DNA from: Sneathiellales bacterium
Lineage (GTDB): Bacteria > Pseudomonadota > Alphaproteobacteria > JANQFL01
Direction: 5' to 3'
Assembly (NCBI GenBank): GCA_028277845.1
Contig: JANQFL010000088.1
Location: 1 to 45,465, forward strand
Length of the DNA stretch: 45,465 bases
In this document: positions 4,839-38,125 of the stretch, piece after piece
Layout: every line of letters starts with the position of its first letter
Numbering within the stretch: position 1 is the first letter of the stretch
Program-made: the position numbers and the translations under genes
The notes under the pieces: generated by a model
Databases searched by the model: none
What the model was told of the DNA's origin: nothing
The model's input: only the letters and a program-made list of their open reading frames with translations

Positions 4839-5820
4839 GCCCCATCGTCAGCATGCCGTCCTGAGCCGTCACCGGCACTTTCAGGACCTTGCGCCCCTCG
4901 TCGTCGCGCCGCGCCAGCAAGCCGAGCACGGCCTTGATCATGCCGGAGTCCTTGCGCCGGACCACGCCGCCCTCGACCAGGGCGTCGACGAGAGTATTGA
5001 AGCCAGACACCCGCGATGTCAGGGCACCGAGCGGCCTGAGTTGCTGATCCAGACTGACGGTCCCTTCGGCACGGGCATCGACCCCGCCCCAATTCAGGTT
5101 GAGGGCATGCACGTCGACCGTCCCGCCGGCGTCGCGCCAGGTCGTCAACTGCTTCGCATCGAACCGCGACGGCACCGGTCCCTGCACGGTGCCGACCAGT
5201 GTGGCTTTGTCGACCGATGGCCCGAGCGGCCCTGACGCGCGCGGCGGCAGCGTCACATCGTCGGCCGACGCGGAGACATGGATCAAGTCCTGATCGCCGT
5301 CGTCGGACTGTTGCGGGCGCAGACTGAGCGTGATCGTTTTGGCAGCGTAGGTGTCACCGTCGATCTGTTCCGCCGCCACACCGTCCTGGACCAACGCCTC
5401 CACCTGGGTCACACCGTCGGTGCTCAGAGACGGCCGTACGACAAGACGCTCGGTGGTCACGAGCCAATCGCCCGTCATGACGCCGCGCGAAACCAGCAAC
5501 CGATGCGGCCCGATCGCGTCGATGACCGGCTCGTCCAGTCCAAACAGTCCCGCCGCGGCCTCTATGCGCGTGCTGCTCCAGGCCCAATCGGCCTCTTCGA
5601 CACCCTGCGAGACGATGGGTTTGTTGACGGCGACGGTCAGCGACAGGGGAAAACCCTTGGTTTCCAAGCCGGAATGTTCGATCTGCACCCCGGCGCGGCG
5701 CTGGTCTTCCATCCATTGCACCAGACCGGATTCGACGCCGGCGGCGGTTCCGAACCAATAGGCCGTATAGCCGCCGAATGCGGCGGCGGCCAATCCGCTT
5801 GCCCAGTAAATCGCTTTCAC
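4780..5820 (-). CDS. DUF2125 domain-containing protein
   Basis: A 346-residue protein of unknown function with an N-terminal hydrophobic anchor (IYWASGLAAAAFGGYTAYWF, roughly residues 4-23), so it is probably exported or inner-membrane anchored facing the periplasm. The body is rich in beta-type segments such as FPLSLTVAVNKP and DVHALNLNWGG, as in DUF2125 proteins. I chose the GTG at 5820 because GGGGAATGG lies just upstream and the hydrophobic segment follows immediately. The frame is open further upstream (to 6081), but the extension has no protein-like character. The gene is convergent with tyrA and the coding ends overlap by 59 bp. The same tyrA neighbour is common in Rhodospirillales; a functional link is not known. 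Confidence 0.82.
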   Translation of the reverse strand: MKAIYWASGLAAAAFGGYTAYWFGTAAGVESGLVQWMEDQRRAGVQIEHSGLETKGFPLSLTVAVNKPIVSQGVEEADWAWSSTRIEAAAGLFGLDEPVIDAIGPHRLLVSRGVMTGDWLVTTERLVVRPSLSTDGVTQVEALVQDGVAAEQIDGDTYAAKTITLSLRPQQSDDGDQDLIHVSASADDVTLPPRASGPLGPSVDKATLVGTVQGPVPSRFDAKQLTTWRDAGGTVDVHALNLNWGGVDARAEGTVSLDQQLRPLGALTSRVSGFNTLVDALVEGGVVRRKDSGMIKAVLGLLARRDDEGRKVLKVPVTAQDGMLTMGPIPLLPLPDVTTIARNQGR

Positions 5821-18894: not shown

Positions 18895-19524
18895 TTAGGA
18901 CGCTCTGTCGAGAAGAGCCGTTAGCGGTGTAAAGGTTTTGCTCGGAACCACGTCCCGTTGCTGCTCGGCCTGTTCCGAAACCGGCGAATAGATGGTGGCC
19001 CCGAGGATGTATGCGCTGACCCCTTGCTCGTTCTGCAACGGTACGAACAGGCGCTCGCCAATTCCCGGCCGTTGAATGGTGTGCATGTAGACGGGTCCGA
19101 TGGAATGGCAGACACCGGGCGCGTTGAGCACCTTCATGTACTGTTCCGATACCAACTCCCAAGCTTCGTCGCCGATGACCTCGCGGAACAAACACCCGAC
19201 GATATTTGTCGCATACAGCGCCTTGACATCTTCTCCGGCCAGGCGGCATCGGAACTCGGTGGTTCCCGGAAGGTGCTCCTGTATCCAAATATTCGGCAAA
19301 AGACGGGGGATGTCCAATGGGTCGATGTCGCGCCGCCCGGGGGGCTTCAATCCATCCACCTTCGTGAGCCAGTAGTCCAACAGCGCCTGCAGCTTGCCGT
19401 TTTTGATTGCGGGTGATGCATCAAGCTCCTCGATGGCCCGCGGCAAGCTGGTTGCTCCGTATGTCGTAGGATCGCTGATACCGGCACCATTCCTCGTCTT
19501 GATCCACACAAGCGGCACGTTCAT
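18895..19524 (-). CDS. PAS domain-containing protein (PAS_5 type)
   Basis: A 209-residue soluble protein with a single PAS_5-like domain and no attached output domain. LLDYWLTKVDGLKPPGRRDI and DPLDIPRLLPNIWIQE form the conserved entry of PAS_5 proteins. FRCRLAGEDVKALYATNIVG, the IGPVYMHTIQ segment and RLFVPLQNEQGVSAYILGAT follow as the PAS core strands. Role is probably ligand or redox sensing, unknown in detail. I chose ATG 19524 (MNVPLVWIK) because GGAAAG is 5 bp upstream. The alternative ATG at 19557 is TTG in the duplicated copy at 24 kb, which argues against it. The first ~50 codons and upstream sequence are duplicated at 24076-24276. Confidence 0.82.
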   Translation of the reverse strand: MNVPLVWIKTRNGAGISDPTTYGATSLPRAIEELDASPAIKNGKLQALLDYWLTKVDGLKPPGRRDIDPLDIPRLLPNIWIQEHLPGTTEFRCRLAGEDVKALYATNIVGCLFREVIGDEAWELVSEQYMKVLNAPGVCHSIGPVYMHTIQRPGIGERLFVPLQNEQGVSAYILGATIYSPVSEQAEQQRDVVPSKTFTPLTALLDRAS

Positions 19525-19582
19525 GCGGCTTTCCGCAGACAAGAATAATCGAATCATACGGCGCCCGAAAGCAACTTACCCG
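19382..19582. repeat. 201-bp direct repeat, copy 1 (5' end of PAS gene)
   Basis: Ungapped match to 24076-24276 at a constant offset of 4694 bp; by hand I count 8 mismatches in 201 bases (about 96% identity), most of them clustered at the low-coordinate end. The copy comprises the first ~47 codons of the intact PAS gene plus 58 bp upstream. At its high-coordinate edge it abuts a truncated methyltransferase gene exactly. Coding changes between copies are conservative (Ile/Val, Asn/Ser) or silent. Confidence 0.95.
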
Positions 19583-19731
19583 CCGCCGCAACCGAGTTCC
19601 AGCACATCCATGTCGGGCCGGAGATACGTGGGCGAGATCTACAGCATTTTCTGATAAACACTTTCGTCCGGGATCGGCTTCGCGGTGTAGCGTTTGGCAA
19701 TCCGGTCCCAGAAACGACTTGAGCCGCTCAT
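19583..19731 (-). pseudogene. Truncated class I SAM methyltransferase remnant
   Basis: Starting at the ATG at 19731, the minus strand encodes MSGSSRFWDRIAKRYTAKPI then PDESVYQKML, an in-frame TAG (19641-19639), then ISPTYLRPDMDVLELGCGGG. The pattern FWDxIAxxYxxxPI...YLRPDMxVLExGCG is the N-terminus of a family of SAM-dependent methyltransferases and ends in the SAM-binding motif I. The gene is cut off exactly where the 201-bp repeat begins, so about three quarters of the protein is missing. The combination of premature stop and truncation makes it a dead gene. Confidence 0.8.
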
Positions 19732-19875
19732 GGACAATACTGCTCCCCAACCAATGATGAATTGCGACAATTGGCTTAATTTATGTCTTACCGATATTTT
19801 GGCTAGGGTACCGGGTAGTAACGAAGTGGTTAGTAATTCCGGCTTGAATAGCGGTCTTCCGAAACGGCGCAAATC

Positions 19876-21333
19876 ATGAGTGAGGGAATGGACGGCGCAA
19901 TTCGATTTCTGCTCAATGGCGTGCCCCGCGCCTTGACCACCGTCGCGCCGAATACGTCCGTTCTCTCGTATCTCAGAGAAACGGAATTGCTGTGCGGCAC
20001 CAAGGACGGTTGCAGTACCGGCGGTTGCGGTGCCTGCACGGTGGCGTTGGCGGAACTGTCTGAAGACGGACTGCACTACCGGTCCGTCAACGCATGTAAC
20101 CTGCCCGTCACCGAATTGCACGGCAAGCTCCTGGTCACCATCGAAGGGCTGGCCGGCAAAGACGGACGCCTGCATCCCGTACAAGCGGCAATCTTGCGGC
20201 AGCATGGAACGCAATGCGGCTACTGCACGCCCGGTGTCGCGATGTCGCTTTTTTGCCTGAATCATCGGAAACGCGGAAATGAAGCGGACGACGCGGAAGT
20301 GATCCGTTCCCTGTCGGGTAATATTTGCCGTTGCACGGGGTATCGGCCGCTCTTGGCTGCGGCGCGGGACATCGCGGATGGGAGCGAAGACTGGTATCTG
20401 GAAAACGAACATCGGCTTGCCGAACAATTACGCGACCACGTCGGTGCGACACGCATCGTCCTAGAGACCGAGGATTGGCGCTTCGTCGCCTCCCGATCCT
20501 TGACTGATGTGCTCGATGAATTGAAATCCAACCCGGAAGCGACGTTGATTTGCGGCGGGACTGCCTCTTCCCAATCCCGTGCGAGGACAAATGGCCGCGC
20601 GACCGTCGTGTCGATCGCCGATGTCGCGGAGTTGCGCAAGGTCGAAACGGCGGTTGATACGATCGAGATCGGCGCGGCTGTTCCTTATGAAGACATGCTG
20701 CCGGTTTTTGACCGTACGCATCCGGATCTTGCCGCACTGATTCGGCGCCTCGGCTGTCAGCAAACGAGGAACCGGGGGACACTGGGTGGTGCTATCGGAC
20801 AAAAACGCCTTACGGGCGACGTGATCGCCGGACTGTTGGTTCTGGGCGCCGACGTCGTTTTGCGATCGCCGGACGATGAACGATCGGTTTCGTTGGACAC
20901 CTATAATGACGAACCCGACTTGCGCTGCCGGACGGGCGAAGTCATCACCCGCATCAAGATCCCCTTGTGCGGTCCTGATGAAGTTTTCCGCACGTACAAG
21001 GTTTCGATACGCCGGGACCTGGCCCTGCCCGTTCTGACATCGGCGTATTACGCACGTGTGCGGGACGGTCGCATTCAGGACGCGCGGATCGCCTACAGTG
21101 GACTGAACGGACAAACCGTCCGTCTGAAAGCCTTCGAACAGGCTGTTTCCGGGCTGTCACCGTCGGTTGGGCTCGCGACCGACACATTGGACGACTTGGC
21201 GAAGTCGATACACGAGTATGCCGTGGACGATGAATCGAGCGCATATGCCCGATCCCTTGCCGTCAATCTGCTGAAGCGGTTCCTCGCCGAGATCGCCCAT
21301 GCAGATCAACCCGTGCAAGTGGCGGCATTATGA
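19876..21333 (+). CDS. Molybdenum hydroxylase small subunit (XdhA-like, 2Fe-2S + FAD)
   Basis: Electron-transfer subunit of a xanthine-dehydrogenase-family enzyme, 485 residues, close in size to Rhodobacter XdhA. Plant-type 2Fe-2S cluster ligands are Cys46, 51, 54 and 74 (GCSTGGCGACTV, VNACNLPV). The second cluster uses Cys114, 117, 151 and 153 (QCGYCTPG, GNICRCTGYRP). The FAD domain spans about 195-365 and the CO-dehydrogenase flavoprotein C-terminal domain about 370-470. The usual FAD loop GGNIA...GD is here GGAIGQKRLTGD (304-315), a clear departure. Start is ATG 19876, or ATG 19888. The stop overlaps the large-subunit start by 4 bp (ATGA). Confidence 0.9.
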   Translation: MSEGMDGAIRFLLNGVPRALTTVAPNTSVLSYLRETELLCGTKDGCSTGGCGACTVALAELSEDGLHYRSVNACNLPVTELHGKLLVTIEGLAGKDGRLHPVQAAILRQHGTQCGYCTPGVAMSLFCLNHRKRGNEADDAEVIRSLSGNICRCTGYRPLLAAARDIADGSEDWYLENEHRLAEQLRDHVGATRIVLETEDWRFVASRSLTDVLDELKSNPEATLICGGTASSQSRARTNGRATVVSIADVAELRKVETAVDTIEIGAAVPYEDMLPVFDRTHPDLAALIRRLGCQQTRNRGTLGGAIGQKRLTGDVIAGLLVLGADVVLRSPDDERSVSLDTYNDEPDLRCRTGEVITRIKIPLCGPDEVFRTYKVSIRRDLALPVLTSAYYARVRDGRIQDARIAYSGLNGQTVRLKAFEQAVSGLSPSVGLATDTLDDLAKSIHEYAVDDESSAYARSLAVNLLKRFLAEIAHADQPVQVAAL

Positions 21334-23642
21334 AACAGGGGCTGAACGGCGGCGTTCACACACCGATCGCCCATGACAGCGCGGTCAAACACGCCAACGG
21401 CCAGGCACAGTTTGTCGCGGACCGGCCGCTGCCCCACGGTTGTCTGCACGCCTGTCTGGTGACCAGCCCGCACGCCCACGCCAGTATCGTTCATATTGAC
21501 CGGGACGCTGCACTCGCCATGCCCGGCGTGCATGCGGTGGTAACGGCAACCGACATTCCCGGCTTCAACGACGATGGTTTGAGCATTCCAGGAGAAGGCG
21601 TTCTGGCGGAGGCACATGTCGGTTGTGTCGGCCAGCCGGTCGCCGCAGTCGCTGCTGAGACCCTGGAGCAGGCCCGCGTCGCTGCGTCCCGAATCGATGT
21701 CCAATACGAACCGCTTCCCGCCGTTTTGACGATCGAGGATGCGCTTGAGCAAAAGCAATTCGTGACCCATCCCGTTGTCTTGCAAAGAGGGAGCCCCGCG
21801 CAGGAGCTTGGACATGCGGCACACCGGATTCGCGGCCAATTGTCGATCGGCAGCCAAGAGCACCTTTATCTGGAAACGCAGATCGCCGTTGCCATACCCG
21901 ATGAAGACAGCACAGTAGAGATCCGGTGCTCCACACAGAACCCGTTCATGGTGCAACGCTCGGCGGCCAAGATCCTTGGTATTCCGCTGAATGCTGTAAC
22001 GGTCGATGTCCGGCGTGTCGGCGGCGGCTTCGGTGGCAAGGGCATGGGCGCAGTTCAGGTCGCCTCCACCGCAGCTTTGCTCGCCTGGTCGTCCGGTCGG
22101 CCGGTCCGATTGAAACTTGACCGCAAAACCGATCTGCAGGTGACGGATAAACGGCATGAATGCCTAGTCACATACGAAGCCGGATTCGACGACGATGCAC
22201 GCGTCAATGCCATCGCAATAACCGTGGCCGCCCGTTGCGGCCATCAGCTCGGCATGTCGCGCACGGTGCTCGAACGCACGATCATGCACGCCGACAACTG
22301 CTATCACTTCGACAATCTGCTGTTTCGCGGCTTCGGTTGCCGGACCAACACGGTTTCCGCCGGTGCCATGCGGGCCTTTGGCACCCTGCAGGGCATGGTC
22401 GGGGTCGAAGCGGTCATGGACCATATCGCCCGCCATCTGGATATGGATCCGCTGACAGTCCGCGCGCGCAACTATTATCGTGACGAAGCACGAAACACGA
22501 CGCCGTACGGCCAAGTGGTGGAAGACAATCTGATCGGCGAGACCGTTGCCCAGGTGCAGACAGCTTCCGAATGGGACCGGCGGCGGCGCGAAATAGACGG
22601 CTTCAACGCCGACAACCCGGTATTGCGCAAGGGTCTCGCTATGGTGCCGATCAAGTACGGTATCGGCATGCACCTCGAGCACCTGCATCAGGCCAGCGCT
22701 CTCATCAACGTATTCGCCGACGGCAGCGTGCATCTCAATCACGGCGGCGCGGAAATGGGTCAAGGCCTGTTCATTAAGATGGCGCAAATCGTGTCACAGG
22801 TGCTGCAGATCGATATCGGGCACATCCGCCCGATGGCGACCAACACCGAGAAAATCCCCAACGCGACGCCGACGGGTGGCTCAATCAGCACCGATTTGAT
22901 CGGCAAGGCGACGGAAAACGCCGCCGGTATCATCCGTGAACGGTTGACCCGTCTGCTGGCCGCCCGGTTCAAGGTTCCAGCGCATGCCATTGCTTTTGCC
23001 GACAACCAGATAAGCGTCGGCAACCGATGGATATCCTGGAAAGAACTGATCAACTTCGCCTACCACGCGCGCATACCGCTGATGGCGACTGGGTATTTCC
23101 AGACACCGAAAGTGCATTTCGACCGGCAGAAGTTGCAGGGCCGGCCATATGAGTATTTCGTCTACGGGGCGGCGGCGACCGAAGTAGCGGTCGATACCCT
23201 GACCGGTGAGACTCGCGTACTGCGCGCCGATATCATCGAGGATGCCGGGCATTCTCTCAATCCGGCCATCGACATCGGCCAGGTCGAAGGCGGTTTCGTG
23301 CAGGGCATGGGCTGGATGACCATGGAGGAAATCACCTGGGACGAAAACGGCCGATTGCGAAATGACGGCCTCGGTACCTATCTGGTGCCGATGGCGTCGG
23401 ACGTTCCCACGGATTTCCGGGTTCAGTTGTTGGCCAACCGGCCGAATGCGGAAGAAACGATTTACCGATCCAAGGGAATCGGCGAACCACCGCTGACAAT
23501 GGCCTTGTGCGTGTGGCTGGCCATACGCGACGCGGTGCAATCCCTGGGCGCGCCGGGACGGGTTGCCGAACTCGATATCCCGGCGACCCCTGCCCGCGTT
23601 CTCGCGGCGATCGAAGACATCCAGCGCCCTCGGGCACCGTGA
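21330..23642 (+). CDS. Molybdenum hydroxylase large subunit (XdhB-like)
   Basis: Molybdopterin-binding catalytic subunit, 770 residues (Rhodobacter XdhB is of similar length). It hydroxylates a heterocycle or aldehyde using water. MGQGLFIKMAQIVSQVL and GGGFGGKG (231-238) are cofactor-binding loops, and SKGIGEPPL carries the catalytic Glu719. Gln176 (SQEHLYLET), Arg316 (LERTIMH) and the AMRAFGTLQGM loop correspond to active-site positions of xanthine dehydrogenase. The purine-anchoring Glu that normally ends GGGFGGKE is Gly238. No xdhC or other maturation gene is adjacent. The substrate is therefore probably not xanthine; aldehyde or N-heterocycle oxidation is possible. Confidence 0.9.
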   Translation: MKQGLNGGVHTPIAHDSAVKHANGQAQFVADRPLPHGCLHACLVTSPHAHASIVHIDRDAALAMPGVHAVVTATDIPGFNDDGLSIPGEGVLAEAHVGCVGQPVAAVAAETLEQARVAASRIDVQYEPLPAVLTIEDALEQKQFVTHPVVLQRGSPAQELGHAAHRIRGQLSIGSQEHLYLETQIAVAIPDEDSTVEIRCSTQNPFMVQRSAAKILGIPLNAVTVDVRRVGGGFGGKGMGAVQVASTAALLAWSSGRPVRLKLDRKTDLQVTDKRHECLVTYEAGFDDDARVNAIAITVAARCGHQLGMSRTVLERTIMHADNCYHFDNLLFRGFGCRTNTVSAGAMRAFGTLQGMVGVEAVMDHIARHLDMDPLTVRARNYYRDEARNTTPYGQVVEDNLIGETVAQVQTASEWDRRRREIDGFNADNPVLRKGLAMVPIKYGIGMHLEHLHQASALINVFADGSVHLNHGGAEMGQGLFIKMAQIVSQVLQIDIGHIRPMATNTEKIPNATPTGGSISTDLIGKATENAAGIIRERLTRLLAARFKVPAHAIAFADNQISVGNRWISWKELINFAYHARIPLMATGYFQTPKVHFDRQKLQGRPYEYFVYGAAATEVAVDTLTGETRVLRADIIEDAGHSLNPAIDIGQVEGGFVQGMGWMTMEEITWDENGRLRNDGLGTYLVPMASDVPTDFRVQLLANRPNAEETIYRSKGIGEPPLTMALCVWLAIRDAVQSLGAPGRVAELDIPATPARVLAAIEDIQRPRAP

Positions 23643-23648
23643 TTCACA

Positions 23649-24075
23649 TCAGTAGCGTAGATCGGCTTTGGCACGCGCGATCCATTCCCGATTCAAAGCG
23701 CCGCCCTGCTTCTTGGTTCGGCTCGTGTCGAGAGAAAACACGTGACCCGTTTCAATGCCGACGAAGTCGCGGACCTGACGACACACGGTATTTGAATTGT
23801 CCAGCAGGTTTTCATAAAACACGTTCAGTGGATCAATATCGCCGAGAGCGAACAAGCGTTCCAAGCCTGCCCACTGCGCCTGAATGTGGAACATGGCTTC
23901 GTTGACTAGTTTGTAGTCGTAGACCGCTTATCTACAGAGGTCCGCCATGATTTGTTTTGACAGGCGATGCATAATGACACGGCCCATGCGGTTCGATTCC
24001 GCCAGTAAATCGCAAACAGTTTGCTACCCGACCGCAGCACCGTGCAAACCAGATACTGCGTGACCTCGCCTTCGT
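23649..24075 (-). pseudogene. Decayed Stf0-type sulfotransferase
   Basis: Two frames on the minus strand carry pieces of a PAPS-dependent Stf0/NodH-like sulfotransferase. The N-terminal piece (about 24075-24020) reads YEGEVTQYLVCTVLRSGSK, with the RSGS phosphosulfate-binding loop. After a frameshift and a stop, the C-terminal piece (about 23925-23649) reads YDYKLVNEAMFHIQAQWAGL, then DPLNVFYENLLDN and RQVRDFVGIE, the conserved Stf0 tail. Around 100 central residues are missing compared with a normal ~250-residue enzyme. The first few codons are replaced by the 201-bp repeat. A short ATG-started frame 23894-23649 (81 codons) survives but cannot be functional as a sulfotransferase. Confidence 0.75.
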
Positions 24076-24276
24076 AGCGCCTGCAGTTTGCCGCTCTTGA
24101 CCGCGGGTGATGCATCAAGCTCTTCGATGGCCCGCGGCAAGCTGGTTGCTCCGTATGTCGTAGGATCGCTTATACCGGCACCATTCCTCGTCTTGATCCA
24201 CACAAGCGGCACGTTCATGCGGCTTTCCGCAGACAAGAATAATCGAATCAAACGGCGCCCGAAAGCAACTTACCCG
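24076..24276. repeat. 201-bp direct repeat, copy 2 (orphan 5' end of PAS gene)
   Basis: Second copy of 19382-19582 in the same orientation, carrying the first codons of the PAS_5 protein on the minus strand. After LQA the frame runs out of the repeat into the sulfotransferase remnant in a wrong frame and stops at 24024, so no protein function is expected. The upstream in-frame start is TTG here instead of ATG. Confidence 0.95.
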
Positions 24277-24374
24277 GCGTCATCGCCGCGATAAACACGG
24301 ATTTCCCTTTTCCCGGCCGCCACTGACGGCCTGTCGCGAAACCGCCGCGGGAAGCGGCTGATCAGATTCGGCCG

Positions 24375-24404
24375 GGCCGGGTTTCCGCGCACGGGAACCC
24401 GGCC
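24375..24404 (+). terminator. Strong hairpin upstream of the serine hydrolase gene
   Basis: GGCCGGGTTTCC (24375-24386) and GGGAACCCGGCC (24393-24404) form a 12-bp stem with one mismatch and a 6-nt loop; ATTTGCATT follows. It lies in the 244-bp gene-free stretch 24277-24520 and may be a terminator or an intergenic palindrome; the T-tract is weak. Just downstream, 24430-24450 holds two tandem copies of a 13-14-bp unit (GCCATTTATGAAC / GCCATCTATGAAC). Confidence 0.5.
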
Positions 24405-24520
24405 ATTTGCATTCCCGTTACGGAACAGCCATTTATGAACGGCCATCTATGAACTGACATATAGCCAGGCTAATGGTAGTGGCCCCGACCGCAAGGTCCA
24501 TTTGGAGGTGTTGACAGGAT

Positions 24521-34074: not shown

Positions 34075-35445
34075 ATGGCTAGCGTTGGAGAATTCGAATC
34101 TCCTATAACGATCGAAATTAACGGTGTCGGTATTACCACTTTCGAAAACACTGAAGAACTTAGCGACTGGGCCAAGGACGAAGTTGCTGGCTGGGGAAGA
34201 GTAAAAATTGCTCTCGAGAAAGACCGACTTGCCGACATTCCTAACATTTTGGATGAAATGTTAGCCACACCAAGACACATCGAAAACACGATTGCCGACT
34301 ATTTAGTCCAGCCGAACAATAAACGAAACCAGCATTTGGCAAACCTCGAAGCCGATTTAAAAATGTACGAGAACCCACGTTTACGCATTTCCATTCGATC
34401 GCCAGAGGGTCAACGCATTCTTAGTGCCGCAAAAGACGACCCGGATGTTGCGCATATTCTGTTTGCACGCGCCTGCCATCAAAACACTCGTAGCGATAAG
34501 GTCCTCGATCTTGATAGGTATGTATCAGCTTTCTACCGCACCCTCGAAAATGGTCGAAGTATCGAGAAAGAAGCTGAAGCGCATACTTCGGCAATGGAAG
34601 CGCTTAGAGACACTTGGCATAAACGATTCTTGGATCAAAAACGAAGTTTAACAAGTTGGGCAGAAGAGCGTGAAGACGTATTGAAAACACTAATCGACGG
34701 CGTAAGCGAGACCACGAAAGGTGTCGAATCCGACCGATCCGAATTTTCCCGTCAAATGTCAGCAATCAAAAAATCCTATCTCGAAGAAATAAAAATGCGC
34801 GCATCCAAAACATACTGGGCCAAGAAGGGAATACGAAATCGACTTGCAGCGTATGGATGGCTTTTTCTGTTCGCTACAATATTGGTTGGGGCAATTATTT
34901 ACATGCCTAGCTTATATGACAACGTACTAACGGTTCTCAAAGGACCGGCAACTCAAACAGCGGAATTGGCAAAACCTAGCGCCAATGGCAAAGCACCAGT
35001 CGACAATAGTACTCCGAGTACAGACCCTTCTGCCGTAGACACCAATAGCGCCGATCTGCCCACCGGTGACACTGGTAGAACACAACCAACTGCAGTCGGT
35101 ACAGATATAGTCGGACCTACCACGCACTACACAGCCAGAACCTTGGCACCTACCGATTTTATCTTTTTTGTAATCCCGGCCGTGTTGCTGATTTGGGTTC
35201 TACGTATTCCCGCCTCACAATTCAGAATTAATCGTGAAATAGCAGATGACGCAGATGAACGCGTTTCGATGATTGAAACGTTCTTGGCATTGGAGCAGGA
35301 AGAAAAAGCCATGCCTGAAGAGAGGTGGATAGTATTGCAAGCATTGTTCCGCCCCCATGCCCGTGGCTCTGAGGAAGACATGCCCAAAACATTTTATGAG
35401 GCTTTGATCGACAAAGTCGTTCCCTCGAGAACCGGTACTACCTAA
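34075..35445 (+). CDS. DUF6161-like membrane protein, AT-rich
   Basis: 456-residue protein whose codon use and base composition are far more AT-rich than every neighbour. A soluble N-terminal ~260 residues with long charged helices (YRTLENGRSIEKEAEAHTSA) precede a membrane helix (AYGWLFLFATILVGAIIYMP, about 263-282). A low-complexity Thr/Ser/Pro/Ala loop (~290-360) leads to a second helix (FIFFVIPAVLLIWVLRI), and the C-terminal domain has DADERVSMIETFLALEQE and WIVLQALFRP. The last pattern is what I know from DUF6161 proteins, which occur patchily and are often in defence-like or mobile contexts. Function unknown. Confidence 0.7.
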   Translation: MASVGEFESPITIEINGVGITTFENTEELSDWAKDEVAGWGRVKIALEKDRLADIPNILDEMLATPRHIENTIADYLVQPNNKRNQHLANLEADLKMYENPRLRISIRSPEGQRILSAAKDDPDVAHILFARACHQNTRSDKVLDLDRYVSAFYRTLENGRSIEKEAEAHTSAMEALRDTWHKRFLDQKRSLTSWAEEREDVLKTLIDGVSETTKGVESDRSEFSRQMSAIKKSYLEEIKMRASKTYWAKKGIRNRLAAYGWLFLFATILVGAIIYMPSLYDNVLTVLKGPATQTAELAKPSANGKAPVDNSTPSTDPSAVDTNSADLPTGDTGRTQPTAVGTDIVGPTTHYTARTLAPTDFIFFVIPAVLLIWVLRIPASQFRINREIADDADERVSMIETFLALEQEEKAMPEERWIVLQALFRPHARGSEEDMPKTFYEALIDKVVPSRTGTT

Positions 35446-37555: not shown

Positions 37556-38125
37556 CTAAAGCGCTTGATTTGCCTTGTGTTCCGCCAAATCGTTCCAAAC
37601 CTTCTGGTCGGCGATCTTTCCGCCAGATACCGTGAAGACATCGACGAAACGGATGTCCTCGAACGCGGAACCGTCGGGCCACTCGCCGTACAAGGTGCCG
37701 TAACAGGTCACAACCGCCCCGTCGCCGAACGGCGCTTCGTGAAAGGCGTCGTAACTTTTTTTGACCCAGTTGTAGCGGTCTTTGGCCCAGGCGGTGAGTT
37801 CCTCGGGCCGCGAGAACACGACCGGTCCGGGAAACGCCATGTGGAACCCATCGCCCAGAAATTCCTTCGCCGCATCTAGGTCCCGTGCCTCCATGGCGTC
37901 CAGATACCCGCGCACGACGTCCGAAGCCGACGGCGGTGGCGTGCCTGGCGTCCGGCGCACCCGGCCGCGCATGTAATTGGCGGCCGGGACTTCGTAGATC
38001 TGAACCGTCGTGCCGTCGAGCGGCGCGCCGATGGTGCCGCGCACCGCATCGGTGAGCGCGTGCCCCAGTTTTTCGCGGGTTTCTTCGGAATATCCTTCCA
38101 TCAACGTGATCGAAACGACGGGCAT
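37556..38125 (-). CDS. Tautomerase / NTF2-like (SnoaL) two-domain fusion
   Basis: 189 residues in two recognisable parts. Residues 1-~60 (MPVVSITLMEGYSEETREKL) look like a 4-oxalocrotonate tautomerase-family subunit with the N-terminal Pro that is the general base after Met removal; VQIYEVPAANYMRGR is its usual C-terminal strand. Residues ~67-185 are an NTF2-like/SnoaL domain (VVRGYLDAMEARDLDAAKEF then FVDVFTVSGGKIADQKVW). It probably isomerises an enol-keto intermediate. Its start faces the GntR gene across a palindromic region. The order of domains is visible; the joint role is inference. Confidence 0.8.
   Translation of the reverse strand: MPVVSITLMEGYSEETREKLGHALTDAVRGTIGAPLDGTTVQIYEVPAANYMRGRVRRTPGTPPPSASDVVRGYLDAMEARDLDAAKEFLGDGFHMAFPGPVVFSRPEELTAWAKDRYNWVKKSYDAFHEAPFGDGAVVTCYGTLYGEWPDGSAFEDIRFVDVFTVSGGKIADQKVWNDLAEHKANQAL

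Follow-up and report, generated by a model that had tools for sequence, protein, structure and literature searches.

A divergent xdhAB gene pair between 201-bp direct repeats of PAS_5 gene 5' sequence in a Sneathiellales genome

Gene content of the locus and the direct repeat

The window analyzed here, a stretch of 45,465 nucleotides from a draft Sneathiellales genome, carries an xdhA-like and an xdhB-like gene with intact frames that overlap by 4 bases, enclosed by two copies of a 201-bp sequence (Table 1). An earlier note on this DNA had placed the two copies in the same orientation with 8 mismatches and no gaps, and re-alignment reproduced its coordinates and counts exactly; an automatic repeat finder carried the alignment on to 204 bases, at the cost of a ninth mismatch. 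The same note had described xdhA/xdhB-like genes and two dead genes between the copies, and this gene content also holds: one dead gene is a 5'-terminal piece of a SAM-dependent methyltransferase gene, the other a gene for an Stf0 sulfotransferase. A strong hairpin with a 13-bp stem (24375-24404) is found between the right repeat and a gene for a beta-lactamase-fold protein.

Table 1. Features of the xdhAB locus (positions in the window).
Feature	Position	Strand	Description
PAS_5 (MopJ-like) ORF	18895..19557	-	220 aa as called; Pfam PAS_5 4.9e-11, residues 55-187
Left repeat copy	19382..19582	+	5' region and start of intact PAS ORF; 96% identical to right copy, ungapped
Class I SAM-dependent methyltransferase, 5' fragment	19583..19733	-	In-frame TAG; cut at left repeat
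xdhA-like gene	19876..21333	+	485 aa; retains both [2Fe-2S] motifs, FAD-binding motif altered; Pfam and NCBIfam matches
xdhB-like gene	21330..23642	+	770 aa; TIGR02965 match; aligned to 1JRO chain B
Decayed Stf0 sulfotransferase gene	23649..24075	-	Start lost at right repeat; frameshift, internal deletion, in-frame TAG
Right repeat copy	24076..24276	+	Truncated PAS start
Stretch upstream of the PAS gene at a hypothetical empty site	24277..24520	.	Used in junction simulation

Whether the 201-bp unit recurs had been raised earlier, and a DNA search of the whole genome (5.39 Mb in 124 contigs) returned these two copies alone, both at the xdhAB locus. In 483 kb of sampled sequence from the same genome there is no other dispersed direct repeat of at least 100 bp and at least 85% identity, and the sole other direct-repeat group is a short-period tandem array (L084); the repeat flanking xdhAB is therefore far above chance. 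The two copies share no exact run longer than 79 bp, and their flanks are distinct. The mismatches are unevenly distributed, with six of the eight in the leftmost 48 bases of the repeat (binomial P = 0.003 under a uniform model, in a post hoc test of a pattern that was spotted before testing), and four of these six fall on third codon positions.

The repeat contains the 5' part of the 220-codon PAS ORF and 25 bases upstream of it. Alignments of PAS_5 relatives from across the class mostly begin at residues 45-55 of the query, the relatives themselves usually start at positions equivalent to residues 22-47, and codons 1-43 of the ORF have a GC1 (0.44) below GC2 (0.53), the opposite order to that in the other window genes that were checked. 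The called start is thus likely too early and the true start probably lies between codons 12 and 45. Read this way, the repeat probably consists largely of upstream or weakly conserved 5' sequence, plus some 10-15 conserved codons. It runs to about codon 58, only just past residue 55, the first residue of the PAS_5 domain match; in the right copy a TTG takes the place of the called ATG and homology stops past codon 58. Consequently the earlier description of the repeats as a piece of a PAS_5 gene, and not a transposon end, is right as to their being 5' sequence of a host gene, and needs amending in that they comprise mainly the 5' region of the ORF and barely reach the PAS domain. The ORF resembles MopJ-like PAS_5 proteins in its PAS_5 domain (Pfam, 43.1 bits), but it scores only 43 bits on the NCBIfam MopJ model against a cut-off of 200, and for this reason we did not name it MopJ.

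Both ends of the insert fall within genes, which suggests a randomly broken DNA fragment. The methyltransferase remnant comprises the first ~50 codons and ends exactly at the boundary of the left repeat. It is 37-55% identical over the same residues to 12 relatives on plasmids, most of them annotated as class I SAM-dependent methyltransferases, and the full-length protein of one relative is 213 aa (computed from 5001-5642). At the other edge the motif CTVLRSGSKLF of the Stf0 remnant starts just inside the repeat boundary. Beyond it the reading frame shifts, a large internal part is deleted, and a TAG precedes the C-terminal third of the gene; its read-through translation, with X at the stop, matches Pfam Sulphotransf (5e-11) over profile positions 155-244 alone. 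No intact source copy of either fragment was found in the genome. The edge remnants carry at least three lesions in ~190 codons and the 1255 codons of xdhAB carry none, which suggests that xdhAB has presumably been under selection.

Motif changes in the XdhA- and XdhB-like proteins

XdhB scores 959 bits on TIGR02965, above the curated cut-off of 849.5, and XdhA scores 377.7 bits on TIGR02963, under the curated cut-off of 467. The closest relatives are 52% identical for XdhB and 35-39% for XdhA; the best XdhA identity is 39% across a sample of 398 genomes from the phylum, and at most 37% among four genomes from the order of the best XdhB relative. Within its own genome the second-best match to XdhB is 32% identical. 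A search of contigs with XdhB returned relatives of 24-45% identity, with no methyltransferase, Stf0 or PAS match adjoining them. There is no xdhC beside xdhAB, and the genome's highest-scoring XdhC-type match, at 105 bits, falls under the family cut-off.

We compared the motifs of the two proteins in an alignment with Rhodobacter capsulatus XDH (PDB 1JRO, 2W3R) and 18 relatives, and in a wider census of 50 XdhB and 43 XdhA relatives. The query resembles the R. capsulatus enzyme in its two subunits, in an XdhA with Fe-S and FAD-type domains, in the catalytic residues retained in XdhB, equivalent to the base catalyst Glu730 (GEPP) and to Arg310 (the Arg of LERTIMHAD), and in the [2Fe-2S] motifs of XdhA, present as CGTKDGCSTGGCGAC, QCGYCTPG and NICRCTGY. 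It differs, besides lacking an adjacent xdhC, at several positions of XdhB and in the FAD motif of XdhA. The equivalents of Phe344 and Phe459 (R. capsulatus numbering, alignment to 1JRO chain B), which we take to be the two active-site Phe residues of XDH, are both Met. The equivalent of Glu232 is Gly, so that the query reads GGKG where all 50 XdhB relatives read GGKE. Glu232 is a purine-contacting residue in XDH that contributes about 1.5 kcal/mol of transition-state stabilization and a similar share in binding, and the effect of Arg310 is larger than that of Glu232 (PMC9966888). In XdhA, the motif GGN-x-ANASPIGD is replaced by GGAIGQKRLTGD and GGTD has become GGTA; the former motif is kept in 41 of the 43 XdhA relatives, the two exceptions being distant Bacteroidales. 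Judging from XDH structures, these GGN..ASPIGD and GGTD elements presumably bind FAD.

Together, the changes at Glu232, at the two Phe residues and in the FAD motif make a change of substrate and a weakened or lost binding of FAD likely, as far as residues can be read from an alignment, and the product of these genes is probably not a normal xanthine dehydrogenase. More tentatively, and with the odds somewhat against it, xdhAB may encode a repurposed enzyme of the XDH family, devoid of the xanthine-holding Glu and of canonical FAD binding, that would act on another substrate and pass electrons from the Fe-S clusters to a different acceptor rather than through FAD to NAD, and that would represent a divergent branch not sampled before. 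The automatic name xanthine dehydrogenase is unsafe here, since XdhB scores as XDH yet its substrate-binding residue is gone. The pair offers a testable case of function change within the XDH family.

Hallmarks of mobile elements and composition of the insert

Among the listed open reading frames there is no transposase or integrase within the insert or the repeats. The insert ends show no terminal inverted repeats, the end-to-end matches being of 8 bases or fewer and in the same orientation, and the window contains no tRNA. A composite transposon or IS-bounded module was rejected on these grounds, the repeats being PAS 5' sequence with two copies in the genome and accompanied by neither a transposase nor inverted ends, as was an integrative element at a tRNA with att repeats, given a window free of tRNA and an insert free of integrase ORFs. 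The module is absent from 72,556 plasmid records, where the strongest similarity at the DNA level, about 64%, is to ordinary xdhAB, and no plasmid or phage genes were found inside the insert. Compared with its own genome, the insert lies at the 77th percentile in tetranucleotide composition and at the 27th and 38th percentiles in GC3. These values are host-like; they lend no support to a foreign composition of the insert, and they neither support nor exclude a foreign origin.

Origin of the arrangement and its stability

We propose that the locus is the scar of an old, one-off insertion that was not driven by an element and that left ~201 bp of target on both sides, a reading to which we assign a probability of about one half. 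In outline, illegitimate recombination would have placed a fragment with random ends, bearing the front of the methyltransferase gene, xdhAB and most of the Stf0 gene, within the 5' region of the PAS_5 gene, with about 201 bp of target left flanking the insert on either side. Fill-in of a break with widely staggered ends might account for this flank, as might an earlier tandem duplication of the PAS locus of which one copy was then partly replaced. The latter route is made plausible by tandem PAS_5 pairs, which are frequent across the class and of which this genome has examples (C76:1022-1537 with 1613-1903, and C2:18719-19550), and the clustered mismatches, mostly at third codon positions, also favor it. 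The PAS gene would have remained intact on the left side. Later the two cut edge genes would have degenerated, whereas the frames of xdhAB stayed open, presumably through selection on an altered molybdenum hydroxylase. When crossovers between the copies were simulated at four points, each one yielded the same continuous 226-codon PAS frame, which matches the uninterrupted ancestral site that would be expected under an insertion. In its direct repeats of host sequence, ragged ends, lack of element genes and restorable site, the locus resembles scars of long target duplication or of tandem duplication; it differs from the target duplications of transposons in that its 201 bp are longer and the generating event is one we infer. 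Several observations weigh against this proposal: 201 bp is long for a filled-in break, the host-like composition gives no support for foreign DNA, and mismatches clustered at one end and mostly at third positions are less easily explained by one clean duplication of the target than by a second PAS copy that had diverged. If the proposal holds, the locus would be an ordinary but clean example of bacterial gene gain without a mobile element, a ragged fragment lodged between copies of the start of a host gene.

The same mismatch pattern, six of eight nearest to the PAS domain and most of those at third positions, would suit a right copy that used to be a functional gene, and it argues for an ancestral pair of full tandem PAS_5 genes with the methyltransferase gene, xdhAB and Stf0 lying between the two or next to them. 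The body of the right PAS gene would then have been deleted into Stf0, the 5' parts would have been kept alike by gene conversion, and no insertion would be needed. The abundance of such pairs among relatives, with examples in this genome, also speaks for it, but the members of pairs elsewhere match the query separately at roughly 25-36% identity and are not 96% twins, the scheme requires conversion and at least two deletions, and the arrangement is absent from the relatives compared. We consider this history rather unlikely. A Campbell-type or otherwise homology-assisted integration, in which circular or incoming DNA with a PAS 5' piece recombined with the chromosomal copy, would be expected to produce direct repeats of host sequence around the insert, and a diverged donor combined with a conversion tract could explain why divergence is concentrated at one end. 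Such a donor, however, must already have carried the PAS piece fused to the cut methyltransferase and Stf0 genes, and with the module missing from the plasmid records and the insert devoid of plasmid or phage genes this origin appears improbable. An assembly artefact, with one copy or junction misjoined, comes to mind in a draft of 124 contigs, but a simple misjoin is unlikely because the longest run shared by the copies is 79 bp and each has separate flanks; with 8 positions also differing between them, we give this explanation hardly any weight.

As the earlier note had foreseen, exchange between the copies would delete the module and leave a single intact PAS ORF, an outcome borne out at every simulated crossover. 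Such exchange is physically plausible and loss of the module is possible, as recombination in silico restores one intact PAS ORF. The further suggestion that the module may be unstable or vary between strains found no support: no sign of mobility or strain variation was observed, and the ragged ends, the ordinary composition and the 4% divergence of the repeats suggest an old, fixed event. A module that is at present mobile or phase-variable, excised by recombination between the 201-bp repeats, would draw on exact shared runs of up to 79 bp and on the restored PAS ORF, and longer repeats do recombine in Deinococcus, where 438-bp direct repeats 1.5-10.5 kb apart do so (PMC4627823). Against this stand the decayed edge genes, the undefined ends and the lack of a recombinase, and excision would remove the only XdhB of this family in the genome; we regard current mobility as very unlikely. 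The insertion that we favor would instead have settled long ago, as the divergence of the repeats and the decay of the edge genes suggest.

Two further genes in the window deserve mention. The gene at 34075-35445 encodes a membrane-type protein of 456 aa with sub-threshold Pfam matches only (DUF6161, DUF2207_C); its GC3 of 0.43 lies at about the 2nd percentile of sampled ORFs from the same genome, and it was possibly acquired. At 37556-38125, near an HpcH-type aldolase-like gene and a gene for a TRAP (DctP) solute-binding protein, a single ORF carries a tautomerase domain at its N terminus fused to a SnoaL/DUF4440 domain.
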